This document shows positions 11,110-29,043 of a DNA stretch of 64,000 nt, in pieces. The stretch spans positions 3,348,139 through 3,412,138 of the forward strand of contig NZ_JAASRM010000001.1 of assembly GCF_011761565.1 (NCBI RefSeq), given 5' to 3'. The notes under the pieces are model-generated. The model was not told the origin of the DNA. It worked only from the letters and a program-made list of their open reading frames with translations, and did no database searches. The number at the start of each line of letters is the position of its first letter. Position 1 is the first letter of the stretch. The stretch comes from Rhizomicrobium palustre (GTDB taxonomy: Bacteria; Pseudomonadota; Alphaproteobacteria; Micropepsales; Micropepsaceae). The translations under genes were made by a program, and so were the position numbers.

Positions 11110-13947
11110 TTACTTCAGTGTGATGACCTGCTTCTTGCCGTCGTAGCTGACAGTCTTGTCGGCATTCGCGGTGATTTCCACGCCCGTGCCGCGGCCTTGG
11201 CTTACCAGCACGAGTTTGAAATTGCGCTTCTCCAGCATGCCGGGGAATTTCCCCTTGCGGTCCGCGATGGTGAGCGTGCGGGCCTTGTCGTTCCAGGTAA
11301 AGCTGATGGTGGCATAGACGCCTTTCTCATAGGCGTAGGTTTCGTCCTGGTCTTCATATAGGGTGAAGTGCCCGTCCGTGCCGGGATAGATGCGCAGCTC
11401 GATGGGATCGGCTTTCTTTTCCGTGGCGTATTGCAGGTACGGTCCCATCGGCACGATGGAGCCCGCGCGCACCATCAACGGCATGGTTTCGATTGGCGCA
11501 TCTGCGGTGATGGTCTGGCCGCCCGTCATGCCCTTGCCTGTCCAGAAATCGATCCAGGACGTGCCCGCCGGCAGATAGACGTCGCGGGTTTTGGGTGTGT
11601 TGGCGGGCAGGGGCGCTGCATCGCGCGCGTGAATATCCGGCGTCTTCCAATAGACTTGCGCGCGGAAGGCGCCGAGCACGGCGTTCGAAGTTTCGAATTT
11701 AAAGTCGTATTGCTTACCAGCTTCCAAGGTCAGCGGCACCGTCCAGGACCCCATGGAGTCGTAATTGTGCGTGATCTCCTTGCCATCGAGATAGACTTTC
11801 TTCGGCCCGAAGCTGCGCAGATCAAAGCGATAGGTGCCGGATTTTGCGACCACCAGCTTGCCTTCCCAACGCATGGAGAAATGCGGGTCTTTGATGAAGC
11901 TCGGCCAGCCGGTGTACCAGAAGAGGTCTACGGTCGGTTCGATGGCTTCGTGGCAGACCTTGCCCCAGTGATCGTCGCAGAAATATGTGGCTTTCAGGCC
12001 GGGCTTGCCATCCGCAGTGCGGAAGTTTTCCGAGCCCACGATGATGCTCTGTTCCGGTTCGCGATGATACATCGGTGTTGTCACCGGCGCCGCCATCAGC
12101 GAGGGCCCGAAGAGGAACTGGTCCGAGATGCCATAGGTCTTTTTATCGGCCGGGAAATCCATCGGCAGGCCGCGCATGATGGAATAGCCGTCATGGGTGA
12201 TCTGCCACGCCACCGAATAGATATAAGGCAACAGGCGGTAGCGCAGATTGTCGAACTTCTCGAGCACGGGAGAGTATTCACCGAACTCCCAAATCTCGCG
12301 CGGCGTCTCGGAGCCATGGCTTCTGAAGATCGGCGCAAAGGTCCCGAACTGGAACATGCGGGTATAAAGTTCCTGATACGCCGGATCTTTGCCGCCGTTT
12401 GAAAACACGCCGCCTTGGCAGCCGAGCGAATAGGCACCGATGTCGAAGGTCCAATAGGGAATGCCCGCCATGGAGTGGTTTAGGCCTGCCGGAATCTGCG
12501 CCGCGTAAACGCCCCAGCTTGCGCCGATATCACCGGACCAAGTGGTGGCTGCCGCCCGTTGCTGGCCCGCAAAGGTCGAACGGGTAAGAATATAGACGCG
12601 CTTATCGTCGGTTGTCTTGCGCTGATTGTTATAGACGCTTTCCGTCACCACCAGCGAATAGGGGTTGAGATAGCGGGCGAAGGAGCCGAGGTGGTTATCC
12701 TCCACCTTCTTCATCTCATATTCGTGTGAGTCCTTTGTGAGGGCGTTTACGATGTCCGGTTCAGTCGAATCCATCCACCAGGCATCATTGCCGATGCCGA
12801 AGATGTTCTTGTTGAGGTACTTCCAGAAGAGATCGTTGGCGGCGGGGTTGTAGGCATCATAATATTTGAAACCCGCCCAGCCGACGGGCGAATAAAGCCA
12901 GCCGTGCTTATCCATCTCTTTGTGAATGTCGGAGGCCGGGCCTAGCGCTTCCCAGATCGTCGTCATGACGTGGAAGTTTTTGGCGTGCAGCTCGTCATAC
13001 ATGGCCTTGGGATCGGGATAGCGTTCGCTGTCCCAAACCGTGGAACCCCAATTTTCCAGGCCTTTCCAGTAATTCCAATCCTGCACGATGGCGTCGACCG
13101 GAATCTTCAGTTCGCGATATTTCTTGGCGACGCCCAGGATTTCCGCCTGGGTGTGATAATGCTCCTTGCTCTGCCAATAGCCATAAGCCCATTTGCCATA
13201 AAGCGGTGCTTCGCCCGTCAGTTTGCGATAGCTTTTAATGGTCGCATCGATGGATGGGCCGGCGAAAAAGTAATAGTCGACATTGTCGGCGACTTCCGAC
13301 CATAGCGATGCGCCCTTGGCGTCATCGGAAAAGACGGTCTTGGAATAATTATCCCAGAAAAGACCATAGCCCGCGGAGGATACCAGCATCGGGGTGACGG
13401 CGGCGGTATTGGCCTGAACAAGTTTCACCGTCTTGCCGCGATAATCGAACGCGCCATCCTGATGCTGGCCAAGGCCGTAAATGCCTTCTTCCGGGGAAAG
13501 CGTGAAAGCCTGTTTAATGCTGAAGGCTTTCGGCTCTTGTGGCAGACCGGTCGGGGCGAAGCTGGCGGCGCTTTGTTCGGCGAGCAGCACATGCCCATCC
13601 GGCGCGGTGAAGGAAACACTGCCATCCGTCTTTTTGATCTCTACGCGCAGGTTGGGAGAGGTGATGACGACAGCGCTTTCCTTCTCGGCAAAAGAAAGCT
13701 TCAGCTTCGGCAGTGTGGTCTGCACCGCGGAGAGGCTGCGCTTCTGATCGGTGCCATCTTTGGTCCATTTCAGGATGCGCACAGTGCCCGGCGCATAAAA
13801 CACGGCTCGGACCGTCTCGCCGCCCGCCGATATCTCCGCGCCATTTGGAACAGGCCTGTAGCTGCTTGAGCTATGTGTCGGTTGGGCGAGCGCGCCCGTG
13901 GCAGCAATGACAAGCATTGCCGCAATGGAAAAGTATGTTACTCGCAT
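11110..13947 (-). CDS. GH31 alpha-xylosidase with a C-terminally inserted PA14 domain
   Basis: 945 residues with a Sec signal peptide (about 1-21). The GH31 barrel spans about 250-620: predicted nucleophile Asp393 in WWMDSTEPD and acid/base Asp473 in TTWSGDIGASWG. The block VDAIVQDWNYW and the WWMD(x)xEPD form place it with bacterial alpha-xylosidases rather than sucrase-maltases. A PA14 carbohydrate-binding domain (about 648-775: KATYF..., TYRFDLRSFGPKKVYLDGK) is inserted between the barrel and the distal beta-sandwich (about 785-945). This differs from the second GH31 of the window, where PA14 lies before the barrel. Expected to remove xylose from the non-reducing end of xyloglucan oligosaccharides in the periplasm. 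Confidence 0.87.
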   Translation of the reverse strand: MRVTYFSIAAMLVIAATGALAQPTHSSSSYRPVPNGAEISAGGETVRAVFYAPGTVRILKWTKDGTDQKRSLSAVQTTLPKLKLSFAEKESAVVITSPNLRVEIKKTDGSVSFTAPDGHVLLAEQSAASFAPTGLPQEPKAFSIKQAFTLSPEEGIYGLGQHQDGAFDYRGKTVKLVQANTAAVTPMLVSSAGYGLFWDNYSKTVFSDDAKGASLWSEVADNVDYYFFAGPSIDATIKSYRKLTGEAPLYGKWAYGYWQSKEHYHTQAEILGVAKKYRELKIPVDAIVQDWNYWKGLENWGSTVWDSERYPDPKAMYDELHAKNFHVMTTIWEALGPASDIHKEMDKHGWLYSPVGWAGFKYYDAYNPAANDLFWKYLNKNIFGIGNDAWWMDSTEPDIVNALTKDSHEYEMKKVEDNHLGSFARYLNPYSLVVTESVYNNQRKTTDDKRVYILTRSTFAGQQRAAATTWSGDIGASWGVYAAQIPAGLNHSMAGIPYWTFDIGAYSLGCQGGVFSNGGKDPAYQELYTRMFQFGTFAPIFRSHGSETPREIWEFGEYSPVLEKFDNLRYRLLPYIYSVAWQITHDGYSIMRGLPMDFPADKKTYGISDQFLFGPSLMAAPVTTPMYHREPEQSIIVGSENFRTADGKPGLKATYFCDDHWGKVCHEAIEPTVDLFWYTGWPSFIKDPHFSMRWEGKLVVAKSGTYRFDLRSFGPKKVYLDGKEITHNYDSMGSWTVPLTLEAGKQYDFKFETSNAVLGAFRAQVYWKTPDIHARDAAPLPANTPKTRDVYLPAGTSWIDFWTGKGMTGGQTITADAPIETMPLMVRAGSIVPMGPYLQYATEKKADPIELRIYPGTDGHFTLYEDQDETYAYEKGVYATISFTWNDKARTLTIADRKGKFPGMLEKRNFKLVLVSQGRGTGVEITANADKTVSYDGKKQVITLK

Positions 13948-14408: not shown

Positions 14409-15416
14409 ATGGGGCAGTCCGGCTTTAGCCGCCGTCATCTCTTGCAAATGGGCGCAGCGGCATCGCTGCTGGGGCGGGCGCGTGCTGAAGCTCCGCCTGC
14501 GTTTCTAGCCGCGGAAGCTGGCACCTCGCTCCTCACCACGGATGTCCGCTTGAACGGTCAAGGCCCGTATCATTTCGTGGTCGATACGGGGGCCGACCGG
14601 ACGGTGCTCGCCGACACGGTGGCACGCGATCTGCTCTTCGCGGCCAGTGGCAAGATCAACGTTCAGGGGATCGTCCGCACGGTGGAAGCGCCGTCGGTGC
14701 GGATCACAAAGCTCGAGGCTGGACCGGTGCGGGGGGAGGCGCTCGATGTGCCAATCCTGCCGCGAGAGCTTTTGCAAGCAGATGGTTTTCTCGGTCTTGA
14801 TGTGTTGGACGGCCACCGCGTCGTGATGGATTTCCGCGAGGGCGTTTTGCGGCTGTTGGAACCGCGCCCCTCCCAACTCATCGGCTTCGATGCGCCGCGC
14901 GAAGTTCCAGTGAAATTAAGCGGCTCAGAGGGACGTTTGCGGTCCACCCAATGTTTGGTGGACGGCGTGCGCTGCACGGCTTTTATCGACACCGGCGCGG
15001 AAATTTCGGTTGGAAATGGGCCGCTCTATCGTGCATTGGCGGAGAAGCACCCGACCCTTAGGAGTGTGGAGACCATTCCGTTGACCGGTGTCACTGGCGG
15101 AGTGGTTGCGGGTGATGTGGTAGCCTTGAATGGTATTAGTCTTGGCGGGCTCAGCATTCTGGATAGCCGCATCGCGATTGCTGATCTTCAGGTGTTCCGC
15201 TTATGGGATTTGGCAGAGACGCCTGCGCTTTTCATCGGTATGAACTGGCTGCACCGCTTCAACCGCGTCGCCATTGATTATGGCCGCAAGGAAATGCGTT
15301 TTGATCTTGCCGTGGCGCGGCCCGATACACGCTGGAAATGCAACGCGCCGGACGAGGATTGCCATTACCGGCTGGGTTCTCCGTATACGATTCCGCGCCC
15401 ATCTGTGGCGACGTAA
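14409..15416 (+). CDS. Exported single-chain aspartyl protease with two retropepsin-like lobes
   Basis: 335 residues from an ATG at 14409. The leader SRRHLLQMGAAASLLGRARA has a twin-arginine look, suggesting Tat export. Two catalytic motifs are present, Asp59-Thr-Gly in VVDTGADRTV and Asp194-Thr-Gly in FIDTGAEISV. Each lobe also has a downstream hydrophobic-hydrophobic-Gly turn (DGFLGLDVL and FIGMNWL). Retropepsins normally dimerise from one-motif chains, whereas this chain carries both halves, as in pepsin. The 3-prime end overlaps the 3-prime end of the convergent GH74 gene by 52 bp. Its substrate is unknown, and its link to the xyloglucan genes is positional only. Confidence 0.78.
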   Translation: MGQSGFSRRHLLQMGAAASLLGRARAEAPPAFLAAEAGTSLLTTDVRLNGQGPYHFVVDTGADRTVLADTVARDLLFAASGKINVQGIVRTVEAPSVRITKLEAGPVRGEALDVPILPRELLQADGFLGLDVLDGHRVVMDFREGVLRLLEPRPSQLIGFDAPREVPVKLSGSEGRLRSTQCLVDGVRCTAFIDTGAEISVGNGPLYRALAEKHPTLRSVETIPLTGVTGGVVAGDVVALNGISLGGLSILDSRIAIADLQVFRLWDLAETPALFIGMNWLHRFNRVAIDYGRKEMRFDLAVARPDTRWKCNAPDEDCHYRLGSPYTIPRPSVAT

Positions 15417-17617
15417 ACCCGCCCGAAGATGTTCTTATCGGCGGCGATGCGGCGGAAGGCGCGATAGTATTCGTGCGCCGCGTCGTTGAGCCTGGTCCAG
15501 CTTTCGCCGTTGTCGAGAGACTGCCAGATCGCGCGTTCATTGGCTTTCGTTGCAATGGCATAAAGAGCCATCTCGGTTGCACCAGGCGCGGCTTTGCCGA
15601 AATCCATCCCTGAGATGTTTATGCCTTTGGCCGTGGCGCTGAAATGTTGCCCGCCATCGGTAGAATGATAAAGCGTTCCTTGGGCCACGAACCAGAGGTC
15701 GCCCACCTTGTTCGGCGTGGCGAGCAGCTTCTGCCAATCCTCGCGCCGCGTCGGCTCATCGGCTTTGATATCGGGCAAGCCCTTGGTCGCTATAGGCTTG
15801 AAGGTGAGGGCGCCGTCGTTGCTGACATACAGGACGGACTTTTCGAAATCCAAGGCATAGAAGCGGTTGGCGTCGGCGCGGTCTGCCACGATCCAGCCGT
15901 GACGGGCGGGCAGGCCCTTAGCCTTGGTCCAGCTTTGCCCGCGATCCGACGTCACCACCGGTTCGGGCGTCATTACCACGAAGCGCGCGCCATCGGCTGA
16001 GACAATGATATTCGCATCGATATAGGCATCGCCGTAATTATAGCCGAGCTTGTCGTCGGGAATTTCACTGTATCCCGCGGGCAGAGGTGCTTTAAGCGGC
16101 CGCCAATGGGCACCGTAATCCGTCGAATAGCTCAGCGAGTAGGAGGGGCGGTTATGCTTGGACCGTGTGCCACTGCGCACAAGTACATTCGGCGCCTTTT
16201 CGGCATAGTCGATGGTGTTGGTATTGGTGAACATCGGGTTGGAGGTGATCGGCATCGACTGAGTTAAGTCAGTGTGCACGAAGCCCCCAATATCCCCGAA
16301 ACCCGAGATCAGCGGTGCGCCAGCGGCGGGGCTTGTCATGGTGATCACCGCGGTTTGCTCAACCCCCTCCACCCACGGCTTCCATAAAATCCGCTGATTG
16401 CGCTCGGCGTGGCCGAGCTCGTCGGTGCCATAGACGGTTGCGCCGGTGGTATAGGCGACATGGTCTGAATTAAACGGATCGATGGCGAGGCCGGAAATCC
16501 ACCAGCCGAATTCGGCTTGACGTTCGCCCCAATAGAGGAACGGCACGGCGGAGACATCACGGTCCGAGAGCTCGCGCAGATTTTGCCAATGTGCCCCGCC
16601 ATCCTGAGAGCGCCAGATGATGTCGCCTTTCTCGCGGCAGCTCGTAGAGACGACCAGCGTTCCTGTATGCGCGCGATCCAGCGATAGGCCGGCATAGCCG
16701 CCCTTTGGTTTGTTCGCGCCTGTCTCCGGTGTGATCTCGGTCCACACGCCGCTTTTAATGTCGAGCTTATACACCGCGCCATCGCTGATACCGTATGGCC
16801 CGGCGTGATCGCTATAAGTGATATACAGAATGCCTTTGCCATCCAGCTTGGCCTGTTGCGGCAGACTTGGCGGTTGGCCCTGCACCGCTTGCCAGCTTTT
16901 GCCCGCGTCATCAGAGCGATAAAGATGCACAGGCCCTGGATCGGCAATGCCGACAAAAATAGTGCTGGAACCTTTATTTTTGCTGCCGCTTGCAGGATCG
17001 AACACGACAAAGCTCAGCCCCGCATGCGGGCGCGCATGGCCAGGAGGAACGCCAAGGCCGGCGTAGGGGAAGCTCGTCACTTTGCTCCAATGCTTCCCGT
17101 TGTCGGTGGAGCGTTGCAGCCCATCATATCGTGAGCCGAAATAAAGAATGTTCGTGTTGTTGGGATCGACGGCGAGCCGCTCACCAACTGCGCGGCCTTC
17201 CTCATTGCCGCCCATGCGAAAGGGTACAGGCACAATATCCCAATGGGCGCCGCGATCCTTCGATCGCAAAATCGCGGAGGGGAAAAAACGGTACGTCCCC
17301 ACCGCCATATAGACGCTATTGGCGTCTACAGGATCGGGAGCGATGCTTTCAATGCCGGTGTAATTCGGTTCAGGAGAGGTGTCCTGCAATGGGATCCAGC
17401 GCTTGGCCTGATCATCCCAGCGATAAGCACCGCCCATGTCAGAGCGCAAATAGGCGAGGCCTTTTTCGACTTGGCTGAAGACAAGGCCTGGCATGTAGCC
17501 ACCGCCTCCAACCTTGACGTTGCGCCATATATATTCGGCCCCGAACGCGCTGGTCAGGCTCATCACCGTCAACGCTAACCCGAAGGCCGCGATCCGCGAC
17601 AGGCTTGGCTTCATCAT
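15365..17617 (-). CDS. GH74 endo-xyloglucanase
   Basis: 750 residues with a Sec signal peptide (about 1-27) and an adequate GAGGAAC ribosome-binding site. It has the two seven-bladed propeller lobes of GH74, with repeated Asp-box strands (STDNGKHW, SDDAGKSW, SQDGGAHW, SLDNGESW). The two catalytic carboxylates are Asp60 in LRSDMGGAYRWD and Asp442 in GFGDIGGFVHTD. GH74 enzymes cleave the beta-1,4-glucan backbone of xyloglucan, either at the unsubstituted glucose or between substituted ones. It lies head-to-head with the big TonB receptor, sharing a 680-bp control region, and starts the degradation pathway outside the outer membrane or in the periplasm. Confidence 0.9.
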   Translation of the reverse strand: MMKPSLSRIAAFGLALTVMSLTSAFGAEYIWRNVKVGGGGYMPGLVFSQVEKGLAYLRSDMGGAYRWDDQAKRWIPLQDTSPEPNYTGIESIAPDPVDANSVYMAVGTYRFFPSAILRSKDRGAHWDIVPVPFRMGGNEEGRAVGERLAVDPNNTNILYFGSRYDGLQRSTDNGKHWSKVTSFPYAGLGVPPGHARPHAGLSFVVFDPASGSKNKGSSTIFVGIADPGPVHLYRSDDAGKSWQAVQGQPPSLPQQAKLDGKGILYITYSDHAGPYGISDGAVYKLDIKSGVWTEITPETGANKPKGGYAGLSLDRAHTGTLVVSTSCREKGDIIWRSQDGGAHWQNLRELSDRDVSAVPFLYWGERQAEFGWWISGLAIDPFNSDHVAYTTGATVYGTDELGHAERNQRILWKPWVEGVEQTAVITMTSPAAGAPLISGFGDIGGFVHTDLTQSMPITSNPMFTNTNTIDYAEKAPNVLVRSGTRSKHNRPSYSLSYSTDYGAHWRPLKAPLPAGYSEIPDDKLGYNYGDAYIDANIIVSADGARFVVMTPEPVVTSDRGQSWTKAKGLPARHGWIVADRADANRFYALDFEKSVLYVSNDGALTFKPIATKGLPDIKADEPTRREDWQKLLATPNKVGDLWFVAQGTLYHSTDGGQHFSATAKGINISGMDFGKAAPGATEMALYAIATKANERAIWQSLDNGESWTRLNDAAHEYYRAFRRIAADKNIFGRVYVATDGRGIVYGEPSR

Positions 17618-17992: not shown

Positions 17993-18017
17993 TGGTAAGC
18001 GCTTCCAGTGGTAACGC
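17993..18017. promoter_or_regulatory. Operator-like pair TGGTAAGCGCTTCCA / TGGTAACGC
   Basis: A near-palindrome with a central CG (17993-18007), the style of LacI-family operators, is followed one base later by the half-site TGGTAACGC (18009-18017). The core GGTAAGCGCTT reappears at 28009-28019, and TGGTAACGC reappears at 26924-26932. Both recurrences lie at the edges of the same locus, so one regulator may act at all three. Confidence 0.5.
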
Positions 18018-18230: not shown

Positions 18231-18298
18231 GTTTTTAATGGCGGAAGCCCCGCCAAAAACGGCGAAACCGCCGAATGAAAAACAACTGGGAGGGCATC

Positions 18299-21200
18299 GT
18301 GAATAAATTCGAACAATTCAGAACAGTGCTGCTATGCGGCGCATCACTTGTGGCTGTTGGCGTGTTGTCTGGTGCCGCCTTGGCGCAGGAACAGCCGATG
18401 GAAACGGTCACGGTGACCGGCATCCGCGCCAGCTTGCAATCGGCACAGGCAATCAAGCAGAAATCTGATCAGGTGGTGGACTCCATCACCGCTGTGGATA
18501 TTGGCGCGTTGCCTGACCGCTCCGTGGCCGAAGCGCTGCAGCGCGTGCCGGGCGTTCAGCTCACCCGCACCGACGCTTTGCGCGATCCGGTTCGCTACGG
18601 CGGCACCGGTAACGGCGTCTTTATTCGCGGCCTGTCGTGGGTTTCGTCGCTGACCAATGGTCGTGACACCTTCTCGGCCTCCAACGGCCGCACGCTTTCC
18701 TTCGCCGATATCTCCGCCAACCTGATGGCTGGCGTTGACGTTTATAAGAACCCGACCGCCAAGATGATCGAAGGCGGTATCGGCGGCACCGTCGACCTTC
18801 GCACCCGCAAGCCGTTTGACGCAGATGGCCGTGTGATCGCGGCGTCGGCCGATGTCACCTATGGCGCGCTGGTTGATGCGGCCACGCCCTCCGTCAACGT
18901 GCTCGTCAGCGATCGCTGGGACACGAAGATCGGTGAATTCGGTGCGCTGTTCTCGGCCGACTATCAGGTCCAAAAGAACCGCACCTCGAGCATCTACACC
19001 CAGCGTTACGACGTCAAAGTTCCAGTCGGCACTGGTTCGGGCTATTTGCCGGACAGCACGATTGGCTGGCGTACCATCGACTGGACCCAGGCGCGCACCG
19101 CGTTCGATCTCTCGCTGCAGTATCGCCCCAACGAAAAGCTCGAATTCACCCTGACCGGTATCTATTCGAAGGCCGAGCCGCATGAAGGCGAATATGCGGC
19201 GTCTTTGAACGTCGATTCCGATGCGGCCTATCTGCCGAACTACAAGTTTGCCAGCGATGGCACTTGGGTTGGCGGCACGATGGTCAATTCGCTGGCCGTG
19301 GGTAATGACACCCGCGTCGGCTCGCATCACAACACTAATGCCGACTATTCGCTGACGGCCAAGTACAACCCGACCGATGCGTTGGAAATCACCGCGGATC
19401 TGCAATATTCGGAATCCCGCGCCTATTTCCGCAGCATGGCCGTGTTTATGAACGTCATCAATAACCGCCGCACATCGAGCCATGCGGACTGGGACGGCAA
19501 CAACAAATACGTGATTTGGCCGTCTGCTCCGATCATCAGCCCGAAAGTTGATTTCTCGGGTGATGATCCGATGATCAGCTACACCAGCACCGAAGCCTCT
19601 GCTGTGCAGAACCCGAAGAACAACGTGTTCGGCGCGGCCATGGATCATGTCGAAAACAACTACGCCCATAACTGGGCAGGCCGTCTCGACGCGACCTATC
19701 GCTTCCAAGGCAAGGGGCTAGGCGGTTGGCTGCAGTCCGTCGAATTCGGCTATCGCCAGGAAAATAAGAACGCCATTACCCGCCAGACGGGCTGGAACTG
19801 GGATACGCTGAGCTATGAAGACTGGTTCGGCGGCCAGGATAACATGGCTGCCGCCGTCAAATATGCTGACGATGCCTCGATGACCAAGGATATGACCCTG
19901 CGCAATCTGGGCACGATCCTGGGCAACAACGTGCCGAGCGTCTGGCTGGTCAAGGCGTCGTCGCTCATGGGCGATACCCGCGATACCGCCAAGCTGCTTG
20001 CGACGGCCAAGGGCACGGGTGGCTGGACTCCCTATGCCAACCAGGTCGGCTGCCAGGGCGTCGATTACAAGTGCCAGAAGATCTACGAAAACAACGATCC
20101 CAAGGCCGATAACGTCAGCGGCGGCATCAATAAGCAGGCCGAAGTCACCTACGCCGGCTACTTCGTCGCCAACTTCGCCAATGACGGCTTCCTTGGATAT
20201 GATCTCCCGGTCGATGGTAACATCGGTCTGCGCGTGATTAAGACGGAAGTTTCCTACGGCGCTGGCTACACCTTCTATCCGGTCATCGCAGCATGCTGGG
20301 ATGGCGCGGCGCTGTGCGCCAGCAATGCGGCTGCGGCCAAGTTCGTCGGCAACATTTCGTCTGACGGAACCAAGGGCCTCGGCGGCAAGGCGATTACGTC
20401 CTCGCCGGGCACGCACAGCTACACCAATGTGCTGCCGAGCTTTAACTTCCGCGCGCATCTGTCGGATCAGTTGCAGGCCCGCGTGGCGTATTCACAGGCG
20501 ATGGTCCGCCCGGACTTCTCCTATACCCAGAACTACACCTCGCTGTCTTTCAACTGGGATTCCCAGCATGGCGGCATGTTCCGGGCAAACGATCCGTACA
20601 CGGCTGGCGGCGGCAACCCCAACCTGAAGCCGATGTCCGCGCAGCAATACGATGCAAGCCTGGAATATTACTTCTCGTCTACCGGCAGCTTGTCCTTCGC
20701 AATCTTCCACAAGACGCTGTCGAACTACTTCCTGACGGCGACTGCACCGGAAAGCTATGCGCCGAATCCGAATGGTGGTTCGGGCCCGAACTACATCTTC
20801 CAGACCACCCGCACCATGAATGGCGGCAAGGGTTCGGTTGAGGGCTTCGAATTTGCCTACCAGCAGTTCTTCGACGGGCTGCCGGGCTTCTGGGCAGGCT
20901 TCGGTCTGCAAGCCAACTACACCAAGATCTACAATCATGGTGGCGGCAATGCAGTTCAGAACGTCAACGAAGAAGCGCAGCGCAACAACCACCTCCAGGC
21001 AGGCCTGCCGATCGAAGGCATGTCGAACGACAGCGCGAACCTCGCTCTTCTGTATGCGAAATACGGCGTCGACTTCCGTCTCGCCTACAACTGGCGTTCG
21101 CGTTACCTGATGACCAGCTCTGCGGCGAACATCAATCAGCCGATCTGGTCGCGGAACTTCGGTCAGCTCGACTCATCGGTGTTCTATGATTTCCTGGATC

Positions 21201-21340
21201 ACTACAAAGTTGGTGTCCAGGCGACCAACCTGCTGAATACCACGACGGTCCTCGATGTCGGCTACACCGATTATCACCCGCGCTATGACTGGATCGACAC
21301 GGATCGCAAGATCTCGTTGATCTTCCGCGCCAACTGGTAA
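18299..21340 (+). CDS. TonB-dependent receptor, Xanthomonas/Caulobacter carbohydrate type
   Basis: About 1013 residues. A GTG at 18299 is chosen because GGGAGG lies 5 bp before it. An ATG 24 bp upstream (18275) has no ribosome-binding site and is the alternative. The signal peptide ends at GAALAQ; the plug starts METVTVTGIRASLQSAQAIKQKSDQVVDSITAVDIGALPD, hallmark of the large receptors associated with plant-polysaccharide uptake. The plug also contains RVPGVQLTR, IRGLSWV and EGGIGGTVDLRTRKPFD. The barrel ends in the aromatic residue of FRANW. Position between GH74 and GH35/GH31 genes points to xyloglucan oligosaccharide import. A strong terminator follows, so the GH35 gene may need its own promoter. 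Confidence 0.88.
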   Translation: MNKFEQFRTVLLCGASLVAVGVLSGAALAQEQPMETVTVTGIRASLQSAQAIKQKSDQVVDSITAVDIGALPDRSVAEALQRVPGVQLTRTDALRDPVRYGGTGNGVFIRGLSWVSSLTNGRDTFSASNGRTLSFADISANLMAGVDVYKNPTAKMIEGGIGGTVDLRTRKPFDADGRVIAASADVTYGALVDAATPSVNVLVSDRWDTKIGEFGALFSADYQVQKNRTSSIYTQRYDVKVPVGTGSGYLPDSTIGWRTIDWTQARTAFDLSLQYRPNEKLEFTLTGIYSKAEPHEGEYAASLNVDSDAAYLPNYKFASDGTWVGGTMVNSLAVGNDTRVGSHHNTNADYSLTAKYNPTDALEITADLQYSESRAYFRSMAVFMNVINNRRTSSHADWDGNNKYVIWPSAPIISPKVDFSGDDPMISYTSTEASAVQNPKNNVFGAAMDHVENNYAHNWAGRLDATYRFQGKGLGGWLQSVEFGYRQENKNAITRQTGWNWDTLSYEDWFGGQDNMAAAVKYADDASMTKDMTLRNLGTILGNNVPSVWLVKASSLMGDTRDTAKLLATAKGTGGWTPYANQVGCQGVDYKCQKIYENNDPKADNVSGGINKQAEVTYAGYFVANFANDGFLGYDLPVDGNIGLRVIKTEVSYGAGYTFYPVIAACWDGAALCASNAAAAKFVGNISSDGTKGLGGKAITSSPGTHSYTNVLPSFNFRAHLSDQLQARVAYSQAMVRPDFSYTQNYTSLSFNWDSQHGGMFRANDPYTAGGGNPNLKPMSAQQYDASLEYYFSSTGSLSFAIFHKTLSNYFLTATAPESYAPNPNGGSGPNYIFQTTRTMNGGKGSVEGFEFAYQQFFDGLPGFWAGFGLQANYTKIYNHGGGNAVQNVNEEAQRNNHLQAGLPIEGMSNDSANLALLYAKYGVDFRLAYNWRSRYLMTSSAANINQPIWSRNFGQLDSSVFYDFLDHYKVGVQATNLLNTTTVLDVGYTDYHPRYDWIDTDRKISLIFRANW

Positions 21341-21392: not shown

Positions 21393-21476
21393 CACGCGCA
21401 TATGTGATCTTCTCGAAGATTGCGAAGCTCAGCGAACCGCGCCAAACTCGCTGGTGCAATTCCCATAAGGTGCAGG

Positions 21477-23105
21477 ATGGCCGCCAAGAGAATCTCATTA
21501 TGTGCGGCTGCGCTGCTATGGGCGTGTCTTCTGCCCGCGGCCGCGAAGGATGTTCCCATTCCAGCCGTGGTTCAGGATCATGGCCGTTTCGCGCTGATGG
21601 TCGATGATGCGCCTTTTTTGATGCTTGGGGTCCAGGCCAACAACTCCTCGAATTATCCCGCCGTGCTGCCACAAGTGTGGCCTGCGCTTGACCAGCTTGG
21701 GGCCAACACGCTGGAAATGCCCATTGCCTGGGAGCAGATCGAGCCAGTGGAAGGCCGCTTCGATTTCTCGTTTTTGGATGCGCTGCTGAAGCAGGCGCGA
21801 GGTCACAAGAAACGCCTCGTGCTGTTGTGGTTCGGGGCCTATAAGAACACCGGACCGTCTTATGCCCCTCAATGGGTGCAGACCAATAGGGATCGTTTTC
21901 CGAAATTGATCGACGGGCAGGGCAAGCCCAATGGCGTGCTCTCGCCGCATAGCCCCGCGCTGATCGCTGCCGATAAGAAAGCTTTCATCGCCTTGATGAC
22001 GCATTTAAAGGCGGCGGACCCAGAGCGGACCGTCATCATGGTGCAGGTCGAAAACGAAACGGGCACCTATCGCTCGGTGCGTGATTATTCGCCGGCTGCG
22101 GAAAAGATTTTCGCCGGTCCTGTTCCGGATGTTCTGATCAAGGGGCTTGGCAAGCAGCAAGGCGATTGGAAAACCGTATTTGGCAAGGACGCGGACGAGT
22201 ACTTCCATGCTTGGGCCTTCGCCCATTATGTCGAGGAGGTCGCGCGGGCGGGGAAGGCGGTCTATCCCCTGCCGATGTATGTCAATGCGGCGCTGCGCGA
22301 TCCTGACCCAGAAAAGAAAGTAGACCCAATCAATTATTCATCGGGCGGGCCAACCTGGAACGTACTCGATATCTGGAAACTGGCGGCGCCATCAATTTTC
22401 ACGGCCGCGCCGGACATTTATGGTCACGGCTATGCTGATGCGATGGGCCAAATCCGCCAGTATACGCGTCCCAATAATCCCTTGATGATCGTGGAGATTG
22501 GTTCGTCGTCGGATTTTGCCCGCTTCTTTTATCCGGCTTTGGGGAATGGCGCGCTCGGCTTTGCGCCGTTCGGGTTCGACTTCACCGGCTATTCCAATTT
22601 CCCGCTTGGCGCCAAAAAGGTGGATGCGGCGTCCATCGCGCCCTTTGCGGCGAATTTCAAACTGGTTGGGCCGATGATGCGTGAATGGGCCAAGCTTGCC
22701 TTTGCGCATCCCACCTATGGCGTCGCTGAGCCCGACGATCATGCCGCGCAAACCATCGCGCTCGGCAAATGGCAGGCCAAGGTCGAATACCGGCTCTGGC
22801 AGTTCGGTTTTCCAGAATGGAAGGGGCTTTTCGAAACCGCGCCCGAGGGAACTGAAAATCCGAGCGGTGGCGTTTCGCTGATCCAACTCTCTTCGGATGA
22901 GTTACTGCTGATCGGGTTGCACGCCCGCGTCACCTTCAGCCTTGCTGCAAAAGACAGCAAAGAAATGGTCTATCAGCATGTGGAAGAGGGCCATTTCGAA
23001 AAAGGCAAATGGGTATTCGAGCGCGTCTGGAACGGCGATGAAACCGATTACGGCCTGAACCTCGCTCAGCCGCGCATCCTGCGCATCAAGCTTCAAGCGT
23101 ATTAA
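21477..23105 (+). CDS. GH35 beta-galactosidase (Bgl35A-like)
   Basis: 542 residues from the ATG at 21477 (AAGG upstream); an earlier in-frame ATG gives an implausible leader. Signal peptide about 1-23. The GH35 barrel carries the acid/base Glu194 in VQVENETG and a predicted nucleophile Glu340 in [14 protein letters not shown]. The arrangement of barrel plus a C-terminal DUF5597-like beta domain resembles the Cellvibrio japonicus xyloglucan galactosidase Bgl35A more than plant or human GH35. It should remove beta-1,2-galactose from xyloglucan oligosaccharides. It is followed after 16 bp by a GH31 alpha-xylosidase gene, and the two are probably cotranscribed. Confidence 0.87.
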
Positions 23106-23121
23106 AACAAGAAAGACAGGG

Positions 23122-26070
23122 ATGAACCTCATGCAGACCAGAAAAATCGCACTGATGGCCGCTGCAGTGGCCGCGCTGAGTGCGACCGCCTGCTCCAATT
23201 ATGCGTTGATGGGCTCCAAGCCCAAAGCTGAAGCGCCCGTAGCTGTGAATTGGCAGAAAACAGAAACGGGCGTGGTGGTCACGCCGAGTGAGGCGGGCGC
23301 CAAGAAGGTCACGCTGTCGGTGATGACCGACAGCATCATCCACGTCGTGGCGCAGGGTGCAGACACACTGGCGCCCAGCCAGAGCCTGATAGTGCGTGCG
23401 GCCCCGCAAAAGGTAGCCTTCGATGTTAATGCAGAGGGCGATGCGGTTGTTTTGAAAACTGCGAAAGTCTCCGCCGCGGTCTCGCTGAAGACCGGAAAAG
23501 TCGTTTTCCGCGATGCCAGCGGCAAGGTTGTGTTGGATGGCGTCAATGGCGGTCAGTTCACGCCGGTCAAGGTCGATGGCAAGGACTTCTTTGCGGTTCG
23601 TCAGGAATTCAATCGCGGCACGGATGAAGGCTTTTATGGCCTTGGCCAGCATCAGAACGGCCAGATGAATTACAACAGCGAAGATGTGATCCTCGCCCAG
23701 CACAATATGGATGTGGCGGTACCGTTCGTGGTGTCGACCAAGAACTATGGCGTGTTGTGGGATAATTATTCGATCACCCGCTTCGGGTATCCCGCCGAAT
23801 ATCCGGCGATCAATGCGCAGCTCAAGATTTACGATGCCTCGGGCAAGGAGGGTGGCTTCACTGCCCGCTATACCGACAAGGGCAAGTTGCTGGCCGAACG
23901 GGTGGAAGCCGATCCCAATTACCAGTTCATCGAAGACCAGAAGAATTTTCCGCCCGGCGTGATGCAGGAGCAGAAAGGGGCGGGCACTTCCAATCTGCCG
24001 CCAGCACCTCCGCAGACGCTCACTGTCACCTATGATGGCGCGATCGAGACCCAGAAGAGTGGCGTTCACAAATTCCGCTTCTATGTCTCCGGCTATTTCA
24101 AGCTATGGATCGACGGCAAGCTGGTGATGGATAGCTGGCGCCAGGGCTGGCAGGGCTGGTACCGTAACATCGATATTCCGATGACCGCCGGCAAGAAGGT
24201 CACCTTCAAGGCCGAGTGGAAGCCGGAAGGCGGTTATTTGCGCTTCCTGCATCTCGATCCGATGCCGCAGGACGAACGCCGCGAGCTGTCTCTGCATTCC
24301 GACGTCGCCAAGGCGATCGACTATTACTATGTCGCCGGATCGAACCTCGACGAAGTGATCGCCGGTTATCGTCATCTCACCGGCCCGGCGATCATGATGC
24401 CCGAATGGTCCTACGGCTTCTGGCAGAGTCGTCAGCGCTACGAAACACAGGACCAGCTCGTTGACGTCTTCAAGAAATATCGCGAACTGAAACTGCCGAT
24501 CGACGCGATCGTGCAGGACTGGCGCTATTGGAAGGATCCAGAGTGGGGCAGCCACGATTTCGATCCTAGTCGCTTCCCCAATCCTAAAAAGATGTTCGAC
24601 GATGTGCGTGCGATGCATGGCAATGTCATGCTGGTCATCTGGCCGAAATTCTATGAGGGCCTGGCGCACTTCAAGGAGTTTGACGACAAGGGCCTGATGT
24701 ACCGTTATGCGATCGAGCAGAAATATCTCGATTGGGTCGGTCCGGGCTACGTCTCGTCGAACTACGACGCCTATTCCAAGGAGGCACGCGACATCTATTG
24801 GGACCAAGTCCAGAAGAAGCTCGACAGCCTGGTCGCGCCCGATGCGTGGTGGATGGACAATGACGAGCCCGACATCCACTCCAACATGTCGATGGATGTG
24901 CAGATCAAGATGCGCGGGCCGACGGTGCTGGGGCCGGGGGCCGAGTTCTACAACACCTATCCCTTGGTGCATACTTGCGGTTTCTATGATCATTGGCAGT
25001 CGGCCCATCCGGATAAGCGCACTTTCATCCTGACGCGCTCGGGCTTTGCTGGTTTGCAGCGTTGCAATGGCGCGGTGTGGAGCGGCGATATCGCGGCGCG
25101 CTGGAGTGATATGCGTGAGCAGATTTCGGCTGGCGTGAACTTCTCGATGTCGGGAATTCCGAACTGGACCTTCGACATCGGCGGCTATTCACTGGAAAAC
25201 CGCTACATCACGATGGACGTCGGCAAGAAGCACATCGTTCCGACGCGGGCCGACAAGGCGGAATGGACGGAGCTTTATACCCGCTGGTATCAGTTCGGCG
25301 CTTTCGTGCCGGTGTTCCGCAGCCATGGTGAGGCCGTCAAACGCGAGACGTTCGAAATCGCCAAGCCGGGCAGCAAGGTTTTCAACATCCTCGCCGCCTA
25401 CGACAAGCTGCGTTATCGCCTGCTGCCGTACATCTACACTATCGCAGCTGATACCTATCACAAGGCGGGCACGATGATGCGCGGGCTGGTGATGGACTTC
25501 CCGAACGATCCCAAGGTGAAGAACATCGCTGACCAATATATGTTTGGTCCGTCGTTCCTGGTTGCGCCGGTCACCGAGCACAAGGCGACCTCGCGGTCGG
25601 TCTATCTACCGGCCGGCACTCGCTGGTACGACTTCTATAGCGGCACGGTGTATGAGGGCGGCCAGAGCATTACAGCGGCGGCGCCGCTCGACAAGATGCC
25701 GGTGTTCGTCAAGGAAGGCGCGATCGTGCCGACCGGCGTTGCCAAGCAGTACACCAGCGAAAAGCCGGACGCGCCGCTCACTCTCCTGGTCTATCCCGGC
25801 AAGAACGGTCGTTTCGATATCTATGAGGATGATGGCAAGACGCTGGGGTATCAGCGTGGCGCCTTCGCCCGCATTCCGGTGACGTGGGATGAGGCCTCTG
25901 GCACGCTCAGCATCGGCGCGCGTCAGGGCAGCTTCCCTGGCATGGTTGCCGGGCGCACCATTCATGTGCGCTGGATTTCCGGCCCATCGAAGAACGCGGC
26001 CAATTTCGCGGCTAAGCCAGAGGCAACCGTGACTTATGACGGCAAGGCGGTGACAGTGAAGCGGCCTTAA
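23122..26070 (+). CDS. GH31 alpha-xylosidase with N-terminally inserted PA14 domain (Xyl31A-like), putative lipoprotein
   Basis: 982 residues. The leader ends ALSATAC with Cys24 as possible lipidation site, though Thr at -2 is less typical. The GH31 barrel (about 425-800) holds predicted nucleophile Asp579 in AWWMDNDEPD and acid/base Asp656 in VWSGDIAARW. A PA14 domain (about 295-385) is inserted in the N-terminal beta-sandwich before the barrel, as in the C. japonicus xyloglucan alpha-xylosidase Xyl31A. Membrane anchoring would keep it in the periplasm, acting after the TonB receptor delivers oligosaccharides. An ATG nine bases downstream is an alternative start. Codon use looks slightly different from neighbours, with more GC-rich third positions in the second half. 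Confidence 0.9.
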   Translation: MNLMQTRKIALMAAAVAALSATACSNYALMGSKPKAEAPVAVNWQKTETGVVVTPSEAGAKKVTLSVMTDSIIHVVAQGADTLAPSQSLIVRAAPQKVAFDVNAEGDAVVLKTAKVSAAVSLKTGKVVFRDASGKVVLDGVNGGQFTPVKVDGKDFFAVRQEFNRGTDEGFYGLGQHQNGQMNYNSEDVILAQHNMDVAVPFVVSTKNYGVLWDNYSITRFGYPAEYPAINAQLKIYDASGKEGGFTARYTDKGKLLAERVEADPNYQFIEDQKNFPPGVMQEQKGAGTSNLPPAPPQTLTVTYDGAIETQKSGVHKFRFYVSGYFKLWIDGKLVMDSWRQGWQGWYRNIDIPMTAGKKVTFKAEWKPEGGYLRFLHLDPMPQDERRELSLHSDVAKAIDYYYVAGSNLDEVIAGYRHLTGPAIMMPEWSYGFWQSRQRYETQDQLVDVFKKYRELKLPIDAIVQDWRYWKDPEWGSHDFDPSRFPNPKKMFDDVRAMHGNVMLVIWPKFYEGLAHFKEFDDKGLMYRYAIEQKYLDWVGPGYVSSNYDAYSKEARDIYWDQVQKKLDSLVAPDAWWMDNDEPDIHSNMSMDVQIKMRGPTVLGPGAEFYNTYPLVHTCGFYDHWQSAHPDKRTFILTRSGFAGLQRCNGAVWSGDIAARWSDMREQISAGVNFSMSGIPNWTFDIGGYSLENRYITMDVGKKHIVPTRADKAEWTELYTRWYQFGAFVPVFRSHGEAVKRETFEIAKPGSKVFNILAAYDKLRYRLLPYIYTIAADTYHKAGTMMRGLVMDFPNDPKVKNIADQYMFGPSFLVAPVTEHKATSRSVYLPAGTRWYDFYSGTVYEGGQSITAAAPLDKMPVFVKEGAIVPTGVAKQYTSEKPDAPLTLLVYPGKNGRFDIYEDDGKTLGYQRGAFARIPVTWDEASGTLSIGARQGSFPGMVAGRTIHVRWISGPSKNAANFAAKPEATVTYDGKAVTVKRP

Positions 26071-26073
26071 AGC

Positions 26074-26868
26074 TTATTCCGCGGCGGGAACCAGCAATGG
26101 TTCCCGCTCGCCGTGGGATTGTCTTTGCGCGTTGACGATCAGCTCCATAGCTTCGTCGAGCATGACTTGCATGGCTTGCTGCGCGGTGGCGGGATCGTGC
26201 GCGATAATGGCGTCCGCCACCTTCTTGTGGTCGGCCACCGAGGCTTGACGCACGCCCTTGAGCTGATTGGTCATGCGGATGGAAATGCGTAAAGCCGTGT
26301 CGATCATATCGCAGAGCTGTTCGTAGAAGCGGTTGCCGCTCGCTTTCATCACCGCGACATGGAAGGCGATATCGGAGGTGAGGGGATCGTCATCGCCTTG
26401 TTCGGCGGCGGTCATGCGCGAGAGGGCGTGCAGAATAGGGGCAACTTCGCGCGCGCCCGCTGTTTGGGCGGCCGTCGCAGCGGCGAAGGGTTCCACCGCC
26501 ATGCGCATCTGGGTGAATTCGATCAAAAGAGAATAGGAGAGCTTGCGTTCCAACAGCCAGCGCAGCACGTCTGGATCGAAGAAATTCCAATTCTGTTCGG
26601 GCTGAACCCAGGTGCCGTGTCGGGGGCGGGCACTCAAGAGTCCTTTGGCCGTGAGCATCTTCACCGCTTCACGCAGCACGCTGCGGCTGACGCTGTACTT
26701 TTCGCAAAGCGAAGCCTCGATGGGGAAGGGGTTCTTCTCGGAATAATGCCCCGTGACAATAGCGATGCCGAGGTCTTCCATGATGCGGAAGGTGAGGTTA
26801 GAGCCCGCAAGTCCGCCCACAGGGCTCAGGCCGACGCTATTACCGATCCCATCTGAAGTTTTGCGCAT
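26074..26868 (-). CDS. GntR-family transcriptional regulator, FadR subfamily (FCD domain)
   Basis: 264 residues from an ATG six bases after a perfect GGGAGG; an upstream TTG in frame is not needed. The winged helix (about 28-95) contains FPIEASLCEKYSVSRSVLREAVKMLTAKGLLSARPRHGTWV, the FadR subgroup signature. The FCD effector-binding domain (about 110-245) has conserved metal-ligand-like residues (DIAFHVAVMKASGN and HKKVADAI). Such proteins respond to sugar acids or small carboxylates, or to fatty acyl groups. It ends 4 bp from the convergent GH31 gene and is a natural candidate for controlling the xyloglucan locus. The true effector is unknown. Confidence 0.88.
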   Translation of the reverse strand: MRKTSDGIGNSVGLSPVGGLAGSNLTFRIMEDLGIAIVTGHYSEKNPFPIEASLCEKYSVSRSVLREAVKMLTAKGLLSARPRHGTWVQPEQNWNFFDPDVLRWLLERKLSYSLLIEFTQMRMAVEPFAAATAAQTAGAREVAPILHALSRMTAAEQGDDDPLTSDIAFHVAVMKASGNRFYEQLCDMIDTALRISIRMTNQLKGVRQASVADHKKVADAIIAHDPATAQQAMQVMLDEAMELIVNAQRQSHGEREPLLVPAAE

Positions 26869-26923
26869 TGCCAACCTCCCGCAAGGTAGTGCGCCCGTAC
26901 GTGCGGTCGCATCAGTTTTATGG

Positions 26924-26937
26924 TGGTAACGCTACCA
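26924..26937. promoter_or_regulatory. Operator-like dyad TGGTAACGCTACCA
   Basis: TGGTA-ACGC-TACCA is a 14-bp dyad with one mismatched pair, 56 bp upstream of the FadR-type regulator start. It may be the regulator's own site. Its central CG is also compatible with a LacI-family protein. Its left nine bases recur in the GH74/receptor control region at 18009-18017. Confidence 0.5.
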
Positions 26938-26982
26938 TGCGTTCGATGGGGAGGCAATGCCGGGCTGCGGCAGTTTGGGCCG

Positions 26983-27972
26983 TTATCTGTTACCGGGGAG
27001 GGCACAGAGTGCGCCCCGTTTGAAAGCTGCGGCACAGTCCAGGGTTTCAAAGGGGGCGGTGGAATCGCCCAGGGGTATGAAGGCGACGAGCCCGCCGGGC
27101 TGCTCGTGGCATTGAAATTCCACCACATAGCGTTTTTGCGCATTTTCGCGGCCAATCAGCCGTGTGGTGCTATCGTCAGCGGTGCAAGCAATTTTCTTCT
27201 CCGCCATGGCGTCTCGGAAGGTCTTCAGGCTCACCGCCGGGGCACCGTTATCGGAGAGCTTGCAGGGCAGGCCGCGCGAAGCCGATTCGGCGCAAGTCTC
27301 GACATGGATCGGGATGTTCGCACCGGGCAGGCCTGCCACTGAGATATAGCCTTTGCCATCCTCGCAGGCATATTCGACGAATTCAGTGTGGTTGGCGCTG
27401 TTTTGGCCGATATAGCGATACTGCTTCAGGGTGCAGGTCTTACCTGTCTTGGAAAGAATATTGGCTGCGAATTTCTTCATGTCGGCACTGGCGGGCAGGC
27501 CGCAGACGGCAGTCGGTTTGCGTCCTGCTTTGATATCGGCCTGGCGTGTGGCATCCACCGAAAAGCAAGAGAACCCATAAGGCTTTTCCGGCTCCTGGGT
27601 GACCAGAAAATACCCCATTCCATTTGAGCAGCTCGCTTCATAGGTAATGGTGTCGACCTTCTTGCCGTTAATAGTGTCTGGCCCCTCGGCGGAGCGGATC
27701 GCGTCGGTCACTTCGCAATTCAGCGGCAAGGTCTTCACCAATGTGGCTACTGCGGCGCGGTCTTCGGCCAAGAGGCTTTCGAGTGTTTTGCCCTTCGCCT
27801 TATCTTCCTTGGTCAGGCGTTTGGCGCGATCGGCATAATCGGAAAGGGTATTGAACTGATCTTGGCTCATGGTTTGGCCCATATGGTTGTCGGACCCACC
27901 ACCCGCATAAACGGGTCGCGAAATTGCCAGCGCGGTCAGCACGGCCGCCACAACCAGATGCCCCAATTTCAT
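26983..27972 (-). CDS. Secreted 12-cysteine triple-repeat protein of unknown function
   Basis: 329 residues from an ATG with a GGGGAGG ribosome-binding site; a longer frame adds 47 residues without a signal peptide and is rejected. Sec signal about 1-23. After a charged helix-like stretch (35-80) come three imperfect repeats with four Cys each: 86/115/136/157, 180/203/227/237 and 263/288/313/323. Each has an acidic or aromatic residue run just before the second Cys (TYEASC, VEYACE, VEFQCH). The Cys pattern implies six disulphides. No known family was recognised. A LacI-like site lies 37 bp upstream of the ATG and shares an 11-base core with the GH74/TonB receptor control region, so coregulation with the xyloglucan genes is likely. 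Confidence 0.72.
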   Translation of the reverse strand: MKLGHLVVAAVLTALAISRPVYAGGGSDNHMGQTMSQDQFNTLSDYADRAKRLTKEDKAKGKTLESLLAEDRAAVATLVKTLPLNCEVTDAIRSAEGPDTINGKKVDTITYEASCSNGMGYFLVTQEPEKPYGFSCFSVDATRQADIKAGRKPTAVCGLPASADMKKFAANILSKTGKTCTLKQYRYIGQNSANHTEFVEYACEDGKGYISVAGLPGANIPIHVETCAESASRGLPCKLSDNGAPAVSLKTFRDAMAEKKIACTADDSTTRLIGRENAQKRYVVEFQCHEQPGGLVAFIPLGDSTAPFETLDCAAAFKRGALCALPGNR

Positions 27973-28008: not shown

Positions 28009-28021
28009 GGTAAGCGCTTTC
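28009..28021. promoter_or_regulatory. Operator-like site GGTAAGCGCTTTC
   Basis: Near-palindromic with central GCGC, 37 bp upstream of the triple-repeat gene. Eleven bases (GGTAAGCGCTT) are identical to 17994-18004 in the GH74/receptor control region. Confidence 0.5.
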
Positions 28022-28129
28022 GTCGCCAAGGCAATGCTGTGTCGCGTCGCGATTATTTGAGGCTGCGGGCCCCCCCCGCGACGGAAGGCACCATGGACAA
28101 ATGCATGGAGCAATTCTAAATATCACCCC

Positions 28130-28501
28130 ATGAAGTCGAACTGGCGCACCGTTTTGAGCCTGTTCGTGGCGCTGGTTTTCTCCATCGCCGCGATACCTGG
28201 CTCTATGGCGATGCCGGCGCCCAAGGCTTCATCTGCCCCCATGGCCGCGATGCACCACTGCGATCACATGCAGATGATGAAGGCCGGCCATGATTGCGCC
28301 CAACACAAAACCAAAGAGCAGGGCTCGCCCTGCAAGAACATGGCGGCGTGCATGGGAGTGCTGGGATGCTTTGGTGTAGTGGCTATCGATTTCGTGCAGG
28401 TGCACGCATTCGTCCCCGCCCGTGGGGCCGCGGTCGCGATTACCCATCAATCTGTGCAGGGCCTCTCGTTGCGCCCCGATAATCCTCCTCCGATCGCCTA
28501 A
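28130..28501 (+). CDS. Small secreted His/Met/Cys-containing protein of a metal-efflux operon
   Basis: 123 residues with a Sec signal (about 1-27). The mature N-terminus is rich in metal ligands: MHHCDHMQMMKAGHDCAQH then a pair of Cys-containing turns (SPCKNMAACMGVLGC). A hydrophobic stretch follows at about 85-100. No family could be named, but its place as first gene upstream of a CusB/CusA-type efflux pair and its residues suggest periplasmic copper or silver handling. There is no clear ribosome-binding site before the ATG. Confidence 0.6.
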   Translation: MKSNWRTVLSLFVALVFSIAAIPGSMAMPAPKASSAPMAAMHHCDHMQMMKAGHDCAQHKTKEQGSPCKNMAACMGVLGCFGVVAIDFVQVHAFVPARGAAVAITHQSVQGLSLRPDNPPPIA

Positions 28502-28606
28502 CGGAAAAGCCGCGTTTGTGCTTGCGCTTCGGTGCGTACGCACGCGCGCGAATTTCCCACAGGCTTTGATCTATGTGCCCGGCGCTCTGCCGGGCCGGAG
28601 GAAGAC

Positions 28607-28984
28607 ATGAAATCCTATCTTTTTGCCGTGCTTACGGCTGGCGTACTGACATCTGCATCCTTAGCTGGGGCACCCATGCATCGCATGGCACAAGCAGAGC
28701 CCGCTTATGAAATCCAACTCGATGGCAAGCTGATCGCAGGAAAGCCCCTGTATCTTCGGCTGGTCGACAAGACCAGCGGCCAAGCGGTCGAGGGAGGAGA
28801 GGTGGCCGTCCTGCGTCCGGTTTATGCCGGGCCCAAGACCCCCATCCGCTATGAGGTGCAGGCCCTGCCGCATGACGCGCAGGGGCGCTTTGTATGCGCC
28901 AGCGAACATCACGCAGCCGGTGTCACGCTGCGCGGTGCGGGCCCGGCCGGAGTCTCTCCGGTTTGGATTTCCATCCATAGCTGA
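28607..28984 (+). CDS. Small secreted immunoglobulin-like protein of the metal-efflux operon
   Basis: 125 residues from an ATG with GGAGGAAG upstream; a longer frame starting 75 bp earlier lacks a signal peptide. Sec signal about 1-22. The mature part reads like a beta-sandwich of the FixH/YtkA kind (YEIQLDGKLIAGKPLYLRLVDKTSGQAVEGGEVAV), a fold found in periplasmic metal-efflux accessory proteins. It has a single Cys (near 97) and is followed by the adaptor gene after 59 bp. Family assignment is tentative. Confidence 0.55.
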   Translation: MKSYLFAVLTAGVLTSASLAGAPMHRMAQAEPAYEIQLDGKLIAGKPLYLRLVDKTSGQAVEGGEVAVLRPVYAGPKTPIRYEVQALPHDAQGRFVCASEHHAAGVTLRGAGPAGVSPVWISIHS

Positions 28985-29043
28985 GTTCCTCGGCGGGACG
29001 GGCACAAGCCTGTCCCGCTCCGACACAAATTCCGGAGAAGAAG

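Follow-up and report, generated by a model that had tools for sequence, protein, structure and literature searches.

A secreted-looking protein with three four-cysteine repeats, linked to a xyloglucan-type locus in Rhizomicrobium, belongs to a family absent from the libraries searched

The window, a 64,000-nucleotide stretch of the genome of the soil bacterium Rhizomicrobium palustre, contains a group of xyloglucan-type genes, xyloglucan being a polysaccharide of plants, and, next to them, a minus-strand gene for a protein with twelve cysteines (the 12-Cys protein). The features on which the analysis rests are the following; L, G and f numbers in the text are our own handles for loci, genomes and families.

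11110..13947, minus strand: second GH31, alpha-xylosidase-like
15365..17617, minus strand: GH74 endo-xyloglucanase-like enzyme (match to 2cn2, 490 bits)
17994..18006, plus strand: second operator-like copy, GGTAAGCGCTTCC, in the divergent GH74/TonB-receptor region (pattern search)
18275..21340, plus strand: TonB-dependent receptor
21420..23105, plus strand: GH35 beta-galactosidase, Bgl35A-like (3u7v, 639 bits; 4d1i Bgl35A, 549 bits)
23122..26070, plus strand: GH31 alpha-xylosidase, Xyl31A-like, with PA14 (CjXyl31A 2xvg, 1065 bits)
26074..26874, minus strand: GntR/FCD regulator, next downstream of the 12-Cys gene on the same strand
26923..26938, minus strand: palindrome ATGGTAGCGTTACCAC before the GntR gene, differing from the LacI-like site (by eye)
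26983..27972, minus strand: gene of the 12-Cys three-repeat protein, 329 residues plus stop (ORF translation)
26995..27240, minus strand: repeat 3, residues 245-326, Cys 263/288/313/323 (model, unit alignment, shuffles)
27253..27489, minus strand: repeat 2, residues 162-240, Cys 180/203/227/237 (unit alignment; single-unit model, mean pLDDT 86)
27493..27771, minus strand: repeat 1, residues 68-160, Cys 86/115/136/157, in which an extended hairpin and one additional helix lie between the third and fourth Cys (model, unit alignment, profile)
27904..27972, minus strand: signal-peptide-like residues 1-23, ending in VYA before GGG, with no lipobox Cys (by eye)
28009..28021, plus strand: operator-like site of LacI type, GGTAAGCGCTTTC, preceding the 12-Cys gene (pattern search)

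A Xyl31A-type GH31, a Bgl35A-type GH35 and a TonB receptor, the combination by which a xyloglucan locus was recognised, occur together in the window. Divergent from the 12-Cys gene are CusBA-type efflux genes (28130-33644), with a small His/Cys/Met-rich, exported-looking protein at 28130-28501; among the nine other xyloglucan-type loci, some with short flanks, such an efflux neighbour was seen in L107 only.

Translation of the 12-Cys gene places the cysteines at residues 86, 115, 136, 157, 180, 203, 227, 237, 263, 288, 313 and 323, exactly as the earlier note on this DNA had listed them. The N-terminus, MKLGHLVVAAVLTALAISRPVYA followed by GGG, resembles a Sec signal when inspected by eye, and the note's description of the protein as secreted is upheld to that extent. 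The lipidated N-terminal Cys of SusD/SGBP proteins is absent, the first Cys being residue 86, so the protein does not have the look of a lipoprotein. A GGAGG-type ribosome site lies 5' of the ATG (by eye); an alternative, longer in-frame start exists at 28113, but the starts assigned to the aligned homologues lie near the short one, with a hydrophobic stretch after each. Cysteine makes up 3.9% of the mature chain, tryptophan is absent, and the protein contains no CxxC motif. All 12 Cys are invariant across 24 aligned homologues, a set that excludes the stop-broken L023 and the fragment L026 and includes the fragment L014. Comparison of the gene with seven orthologues gave dN/dS of 0.12-0.19 in five pairs, at dS values (1.8-2.7) that are near saturation, and could not be computed in the other two, in which dS was saturated.

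The three groups of four cysteines pointed out in the earlier note are three copies of one unit, as judged from the unit alignment and the single-unit model. In order, the unit comprises a helix, C, four strands, E-x2-C, G, C, a short helix and C-x-L. Among 89 units from 29 proteins, the four Cys are present in 89/89, a count biased in that direction by the excision of the units by their Cys, the Glu of E-x2-C in 88/89 and the Gly in 87/89, while the C-terminal Leu of C-x-L is found in 83/88. The 12-Cys protein itself has the features that define the four-Cys repeat family (four Cys, Glu at -3, Gly and C-x-L). Its repeats 2 and 3 align with each other better than 1000 out of 1000 shuffles. Repeat 1 taken alone is weak, with 25/1000 shuffles matching its score against repeat 2 and 24/1000 that against repeat 3, and its pairwise alignment with repeat 3 is out of register. 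Within the 89-unit alignment it is in register, and it matches the repeat profile with E = 0.0016; it is this profile and this alignment that identify repeat 1 as a copy of the unit. Its deviant Cys spacing is due to an insertion, namely the longer hairpin and extra helix between the third and fourth Cys.

The full-length model of the protein has a mean pLDDT of 83, and a single-unit model, built from 58 units, one of 86. Both contain a helix, antiparallel strands and a short helix, and each unit is predicted to pack a single helix against an antiparallel sheet of four strands, with a short second helix. Foldseek found nothing in the PDB at E ≤ 0.001 with either the full model or the single unit, and the best VIA-align Z-scores were 5.7 (full model) and 6.7 (single unit), every Z being below 8. 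Stefins, potato multicystatin, monellin and YpmB are among these weak structural matches, at Z about 5-6, and unrelated kinases reach equal or higher values; no kinship of fold is claimed from matches of such low Z that are common to phosphotransferases, propellers and stefins. With best Z-scores of 5.7 and 6.7 and unrelated proteins scoring equally, “cystatin-like” is used here for topology alone: the order of elements in the modelled unit resembles that of cystatin/PepSY-like domains (stefins, multicystatin, YpmB), in which a helix is likewise packed on antiparallel strands. Kininogens and multicystatins use tandem inhibitory domains, and the 12-Cys protein might similarly be a secreted inhibitor of proteases or of another hydrolase, with three cystatin-like modules shielding the exported enzymes. 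The predicted helix and four-strand sheet, the four Cys per unit, the tandem layout and the names among the weak matches all agree with such a function. We consider it improbable, however, as the Z-scores stay low and are equalled or exceeded by those of unrelated kinases, there is no sequence match to cystatin/PepSY-like proteins, QxVxG, the inhibitory hairpin motif of cystatins, is absent from the 12-Cys protein, and the adjacent genes included no noticeable protease partner.

No Cys has been swapped for another residue in 217 aligned segments of the unit (159 complete, 58 cut short), and for this reason Cys loss gives no signal of disulphide pairing. Four invariant Cys, accompanied by a Glu three residues before the second of them in 88/89 units, could also belong to a module that binds metal or exchanges thiols in place of forming structural disulphides, a reading with which the CusBA-type efflux genes divergent from the 12-Cys gene, here and in L107, would fit. 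It appears highly improbable: CxxC is missing, an efflux neighbour is present in only 2/10 xyloglucan-type loci (some flanks being short), and exported proteins with conserved Cys in fours are more often disulphide-bonded.

Within its own order, the family was found in 13/96 genomes, all of them of the genus Rhizomicrobium (13/69), at 26 places. Two of these, L014 and L026, which are identical over an overlap of 46 residues, are parts of a single gene divided between two contigs. Rhizomicrobium electricum carries the family at L028, an orthologue, and at L043. A Xyl31A-like gene (E ≤ 1e-150, identity ≥ 58%) is present in 10/69 genomes of the genus, and all ten also carry the 12-Cys family; the best-scoring copy of each (L001-L010, chosen as the best copy per genome and not as the ten closest overall) lies near a GH31 gene in 10/10. 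In nine genomes this copy is within about 5 kb of the GH31 gene, of which only the end is present in G051, at a contig break; in G023 the Xyl31A-like gene is about 16 kb off, and the adjoining GH31 is closer to the second GH31 of the window. The GntR gene follows directly downstream on the same strand in 8/10 xyloglucan-type loci, the exceptions being L110 and L114. The family also occurs elsewhere: L010 scores below L014 and L015, which are copies outside xyloglucan loci, and in G019, G025 and G027 the family is present as copies outside such loci. The co-occurrence has p = 3e-12 when linked, related genomes are treated as independent, a value that overstates their independence given physical linkage in related genomes. 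In a tree of 27 sequences (L071 and L072 omitted, the first 35 residues of each row trimmed), the xyloglucan-linked copies cluster, with 3 changes and 0/500 shuffles as low, a result compatible with one origin or with several. The finding stands: the 12-Cys protein is conserved, and it is linked to the xyloglucan locus.

The earlier note had raised the possibility that one operator governs both this gene and the xyloglucan genes, and in the window genome the pair of operator-like sites at 17994 and 28009 gives this suggestion support at the level of sequence pattern. An even palindrome with a central CG marks LacI-family sites, according to the accessible text of PMC4052901. The site at 28009 lies inside the spacer of a minus-strand, sigma-70-like TTGGCG/TATTAT pair, recognised by consensus match alone. 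The form GGTAAGCGCTT[CT]C at 17994 and 28009 accounts for two of only four exact copies in the genome; the four exact copies of GGTAAGCGCTTYC in 4.26 Mb are all intergenic and precede the 12-Cys gene and three TonB-receptor genes. The looser pattern GGTAAGCGCTTNC has six exact genome copies, against one for the reversed control; two of the six, GGTAAGCGCTTGC with G at N, are located within long ORFs, and the four with C or T are the intergenic ones. A genome search for the site with one mismatch allowed showed no excess (26, vs 39 for the reversed control). The two exact copies outside the window locus, at 614923 (L140) and 1248545 (L141) of G000, stand before two further TonB-receptor genes, of which one has a GH26 gene close by and the other adjoins a gene of the Trp-halogenase family; together with the sites of the window locus they form a small candidate regulon. 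Both xyloglucan-locus sites are kept in G064 (L122); across the ten xyloglucan-type loci, the site before the 12-Cys gene is exact in 2, has two mismatches in 2 and is at chance level in 6. The palindrome at 26923-26938 was rejected as an operator of the 12-Cys gene, since it is located downstream of it, ahead of the GntR gene. A palindrome of this type, TGGTANCGTTACCA, recurs before the GntR gene in 5/7 other loci compared by eye (intergenic stretches of L102, L107, L115, L118 and L122), and it is probably GntR's own autoregulation site. No operator was found in the accessible part of PMC11897816.

Besides the ten best copies, the genus has 16 further places, which correspond to 15 genes, one of them decayed, and belong to about 10 locus kinds in our grouping. 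The paralogue is directly beside a TonB receptor in L103, L105, L120 and L126, a receptor is about 5-6 kb away in L108, L112 and L125, and L113 has a receptor fragment at the contig end; the remaining paralogue loci have no TonB receptor detectable by a locally built plug profile. Direct adjacency, counted in three locus kinds, gives p = 0.0009 at an assumed rate of 2%, and nearness, in 4 of about 10 kinds, is not significant (p = 0.12) at an assumed rate of 20%, both rates being approximations based on the 528 plug domains of 13 genomes. Glycosidase neighbours are GH42 (L120), GH2 (L105) and GH115 (L109, beside a decayed copy), and other paralogues have neighbours of housekeeping or unrelated function (SAICAR synthetase, Fe-alcohol dehydrogenase, molybdopterin-binding, MOFRL/DUF4147). 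Two of the loci (L103:10900-15899 and L120:5461-13882) combine a paralogue and a TonB receptor with a nearby TPR-sulfotransferase gene, L120 having GH42 as well. The decayed paralogue (L109:6458-10148, in G020) has in-frame stops and comes directly after the GH115 gene. At L106:10825-17823, two genes from a paralogue, there is a 2333-aa ORF, most of which matches ALTTAQ repeats; it is perhaps a stretch of repetitive DNA and not an ordinary gene.

Profile searches of Pfam, NCBIfam and PHROGs and a comparison with PDB sequences gave no significant match for the 12-Cys protein and hence no named domain, which bears out the earlier verdict of “no known family”. Single weak library matches of the protein (PT-TG 0.14, parB_part 0.074, phrog_7923 0.15), eight one-member Pfam matches among the 24 homologues (best PAAR, 0.012) and a few weak matches of distant members formed no pattern and were set aside. 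No SusD or CBM/lectin domain was above cut-off in the 12-Cys protein and 24 members, the sole glycan-related match being GBD_Y3 (E = 0.06) in 1/24 members. The plasmid records contained no match to the family, and the literature searched contains no description of the four-Cys repeat and no paper combining Rhizomicrobium with the terms TonB-dependent and polysaccharide utilization. Across a class-wide sample, the family is detected by the full profile in at least 5/385 genomes and by the unit profile in at least 6/385, with no more than 5 candidates scored per genome for the former and 14 for the latter, and with the genome of the window counted in each. In the distant family f63, the four-Cys unit is present in 117/119 sampled genomes, most commonly with five matches per genome. 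Its presence in almost all genomes sampled from another bacterial family makes the four-Cys unit a true protein family, one absent from the libraries searched, and a curated repeat model would unite many uncharacterised proteins under one name. A set of 36 distinct ORFs, the 12-Cys protein and four or five others not from f63 included, has five units in 20, three in 14 and one in 2. In a further family, f102, a 144-aa single-unit ORF with a membrane-anchor-like N-terminus (L084:1288-1719, E = 3.9e-5) is possibly a minimal form of the repeat.

The uncharacterised multi-repeat proteins of f63 (for example L071 and L164-L190) have a homologous unit with the four Cys, E-x2-C, G and C-x-L. They differ from the 12-Cys protein in that many contain five units instead of three, in their identity of 28% (one blastp pair, L129) and in their gene neighbours, which are MBL-fold or exonuclease III genes and not a xyloglucan locus: of 27 f63 loci (best matches, short flanks), 21 have an MBL-fold gene nearby and 8 have exonuclease III. 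Being near-universal in f63 beside genes with no evident glycan role, the domain is not specific to xyloglucan; an older role of that kind is unlikely, and the Rhizomicrobium lineage may have put the domain to xyloglucan use. The same observations would suit a general envelope protein with a housekeeping function (envelope stability, stress), the Rhizomicrobium copy being a passenger in the xyloglucan locus, and the genus paralogues that adjoin housekeeping genes point the same way. We regard this as unlikely, because the family is far from universal in its own genus, the GH31-adjacent copy accompanies Xyl31A in every one of the ten genomes, and a rare, shared operator-like site is not expected of a passenger.

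At the sequence level, then, the 12-Cys protein combines a Sec-like start, three four-Cys units, a recurrent place in the locus and a rare operator-like site in common with the receptor region. That it is an exported accessory of the xyloglucan utilisation locus, built of disulphide-stabilised repeats, is in our estimate an evenly balanced proposition; a part as an accessory of uptake is, taken separately, rather probable, and binding of oligosaccharide or of the receptor within that part is put forward tentatively. Glycan binding as such is possible and hypothetical, with no backing from residues, fold or family-wide context. As an accessory of uptake, the protein would function as follows. 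In the presence of xyloglucan oligosaccharides, a LacI-type repressor would leave both promoters; the protein would be exported, with the four Cys of each unit forming two disulphides, and would act in the periplasm or at the surface. There the three modules, arranged in a string, would bind xyloglucan oligosaccharides, or else the receptor or the enzymes dealing with these sugars, and this binding would help uptake. To our knowledge, proteobacteria have no SusD, and for the step in which oligosaccharides are handed over to their many TonB receptors the 12-Cys protein is a testable candidate by virtue of its presence with the xyloglucan alpha-xylosidase in 10/10 genomes and of the rare operator-like site that it has in common with the receptor in two. 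A wider proposal, which we hold to be quite unlikely, is that Alphaproteobacteria possess in this unit a new domain family, which is a near-universal envelope protein in f63 and was expanded in Rhizomicrobium to serve TonB receptors in the way of SusD-type proteins, but in soluble form and built with disulphides. The exported modules would deliver oligosaccharides to particular receptors or gate them, and the xyloglucan copy would be the founding case.

Two known systems are closest to this locus. The XyGUL of Cellvibrio japonicus contains xyl31A, bgl35A, a TonB receptor and afc95A, and has been tied to the use of xyloglucan oligosaccharides by expression, reverse genetics and enzymology, as given in the accessible text of PMC4285296, which names no 12-Cys-like protein. 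The Xyl31A/Bgl35A/TonB-receptor core, as far as that text describes it, is common to both loci, and the window locus adds the GntR gene, GH74 and the 12-Cys protein. The 12-Cys protein may, in addition, be compared by analogy with the SusD/SGBP proteins of Bacteroidota, surface glycan-binding proteins that are encoded with a TonB receptor and glycosidases. Like them, it appears to be exported, has no enzyme match and is encoded with a TonB receptor and glycosidases; unlike them, it has neither a lipobox nor a SusD match, contains no Trp, and is made up of four-Cys repeats.
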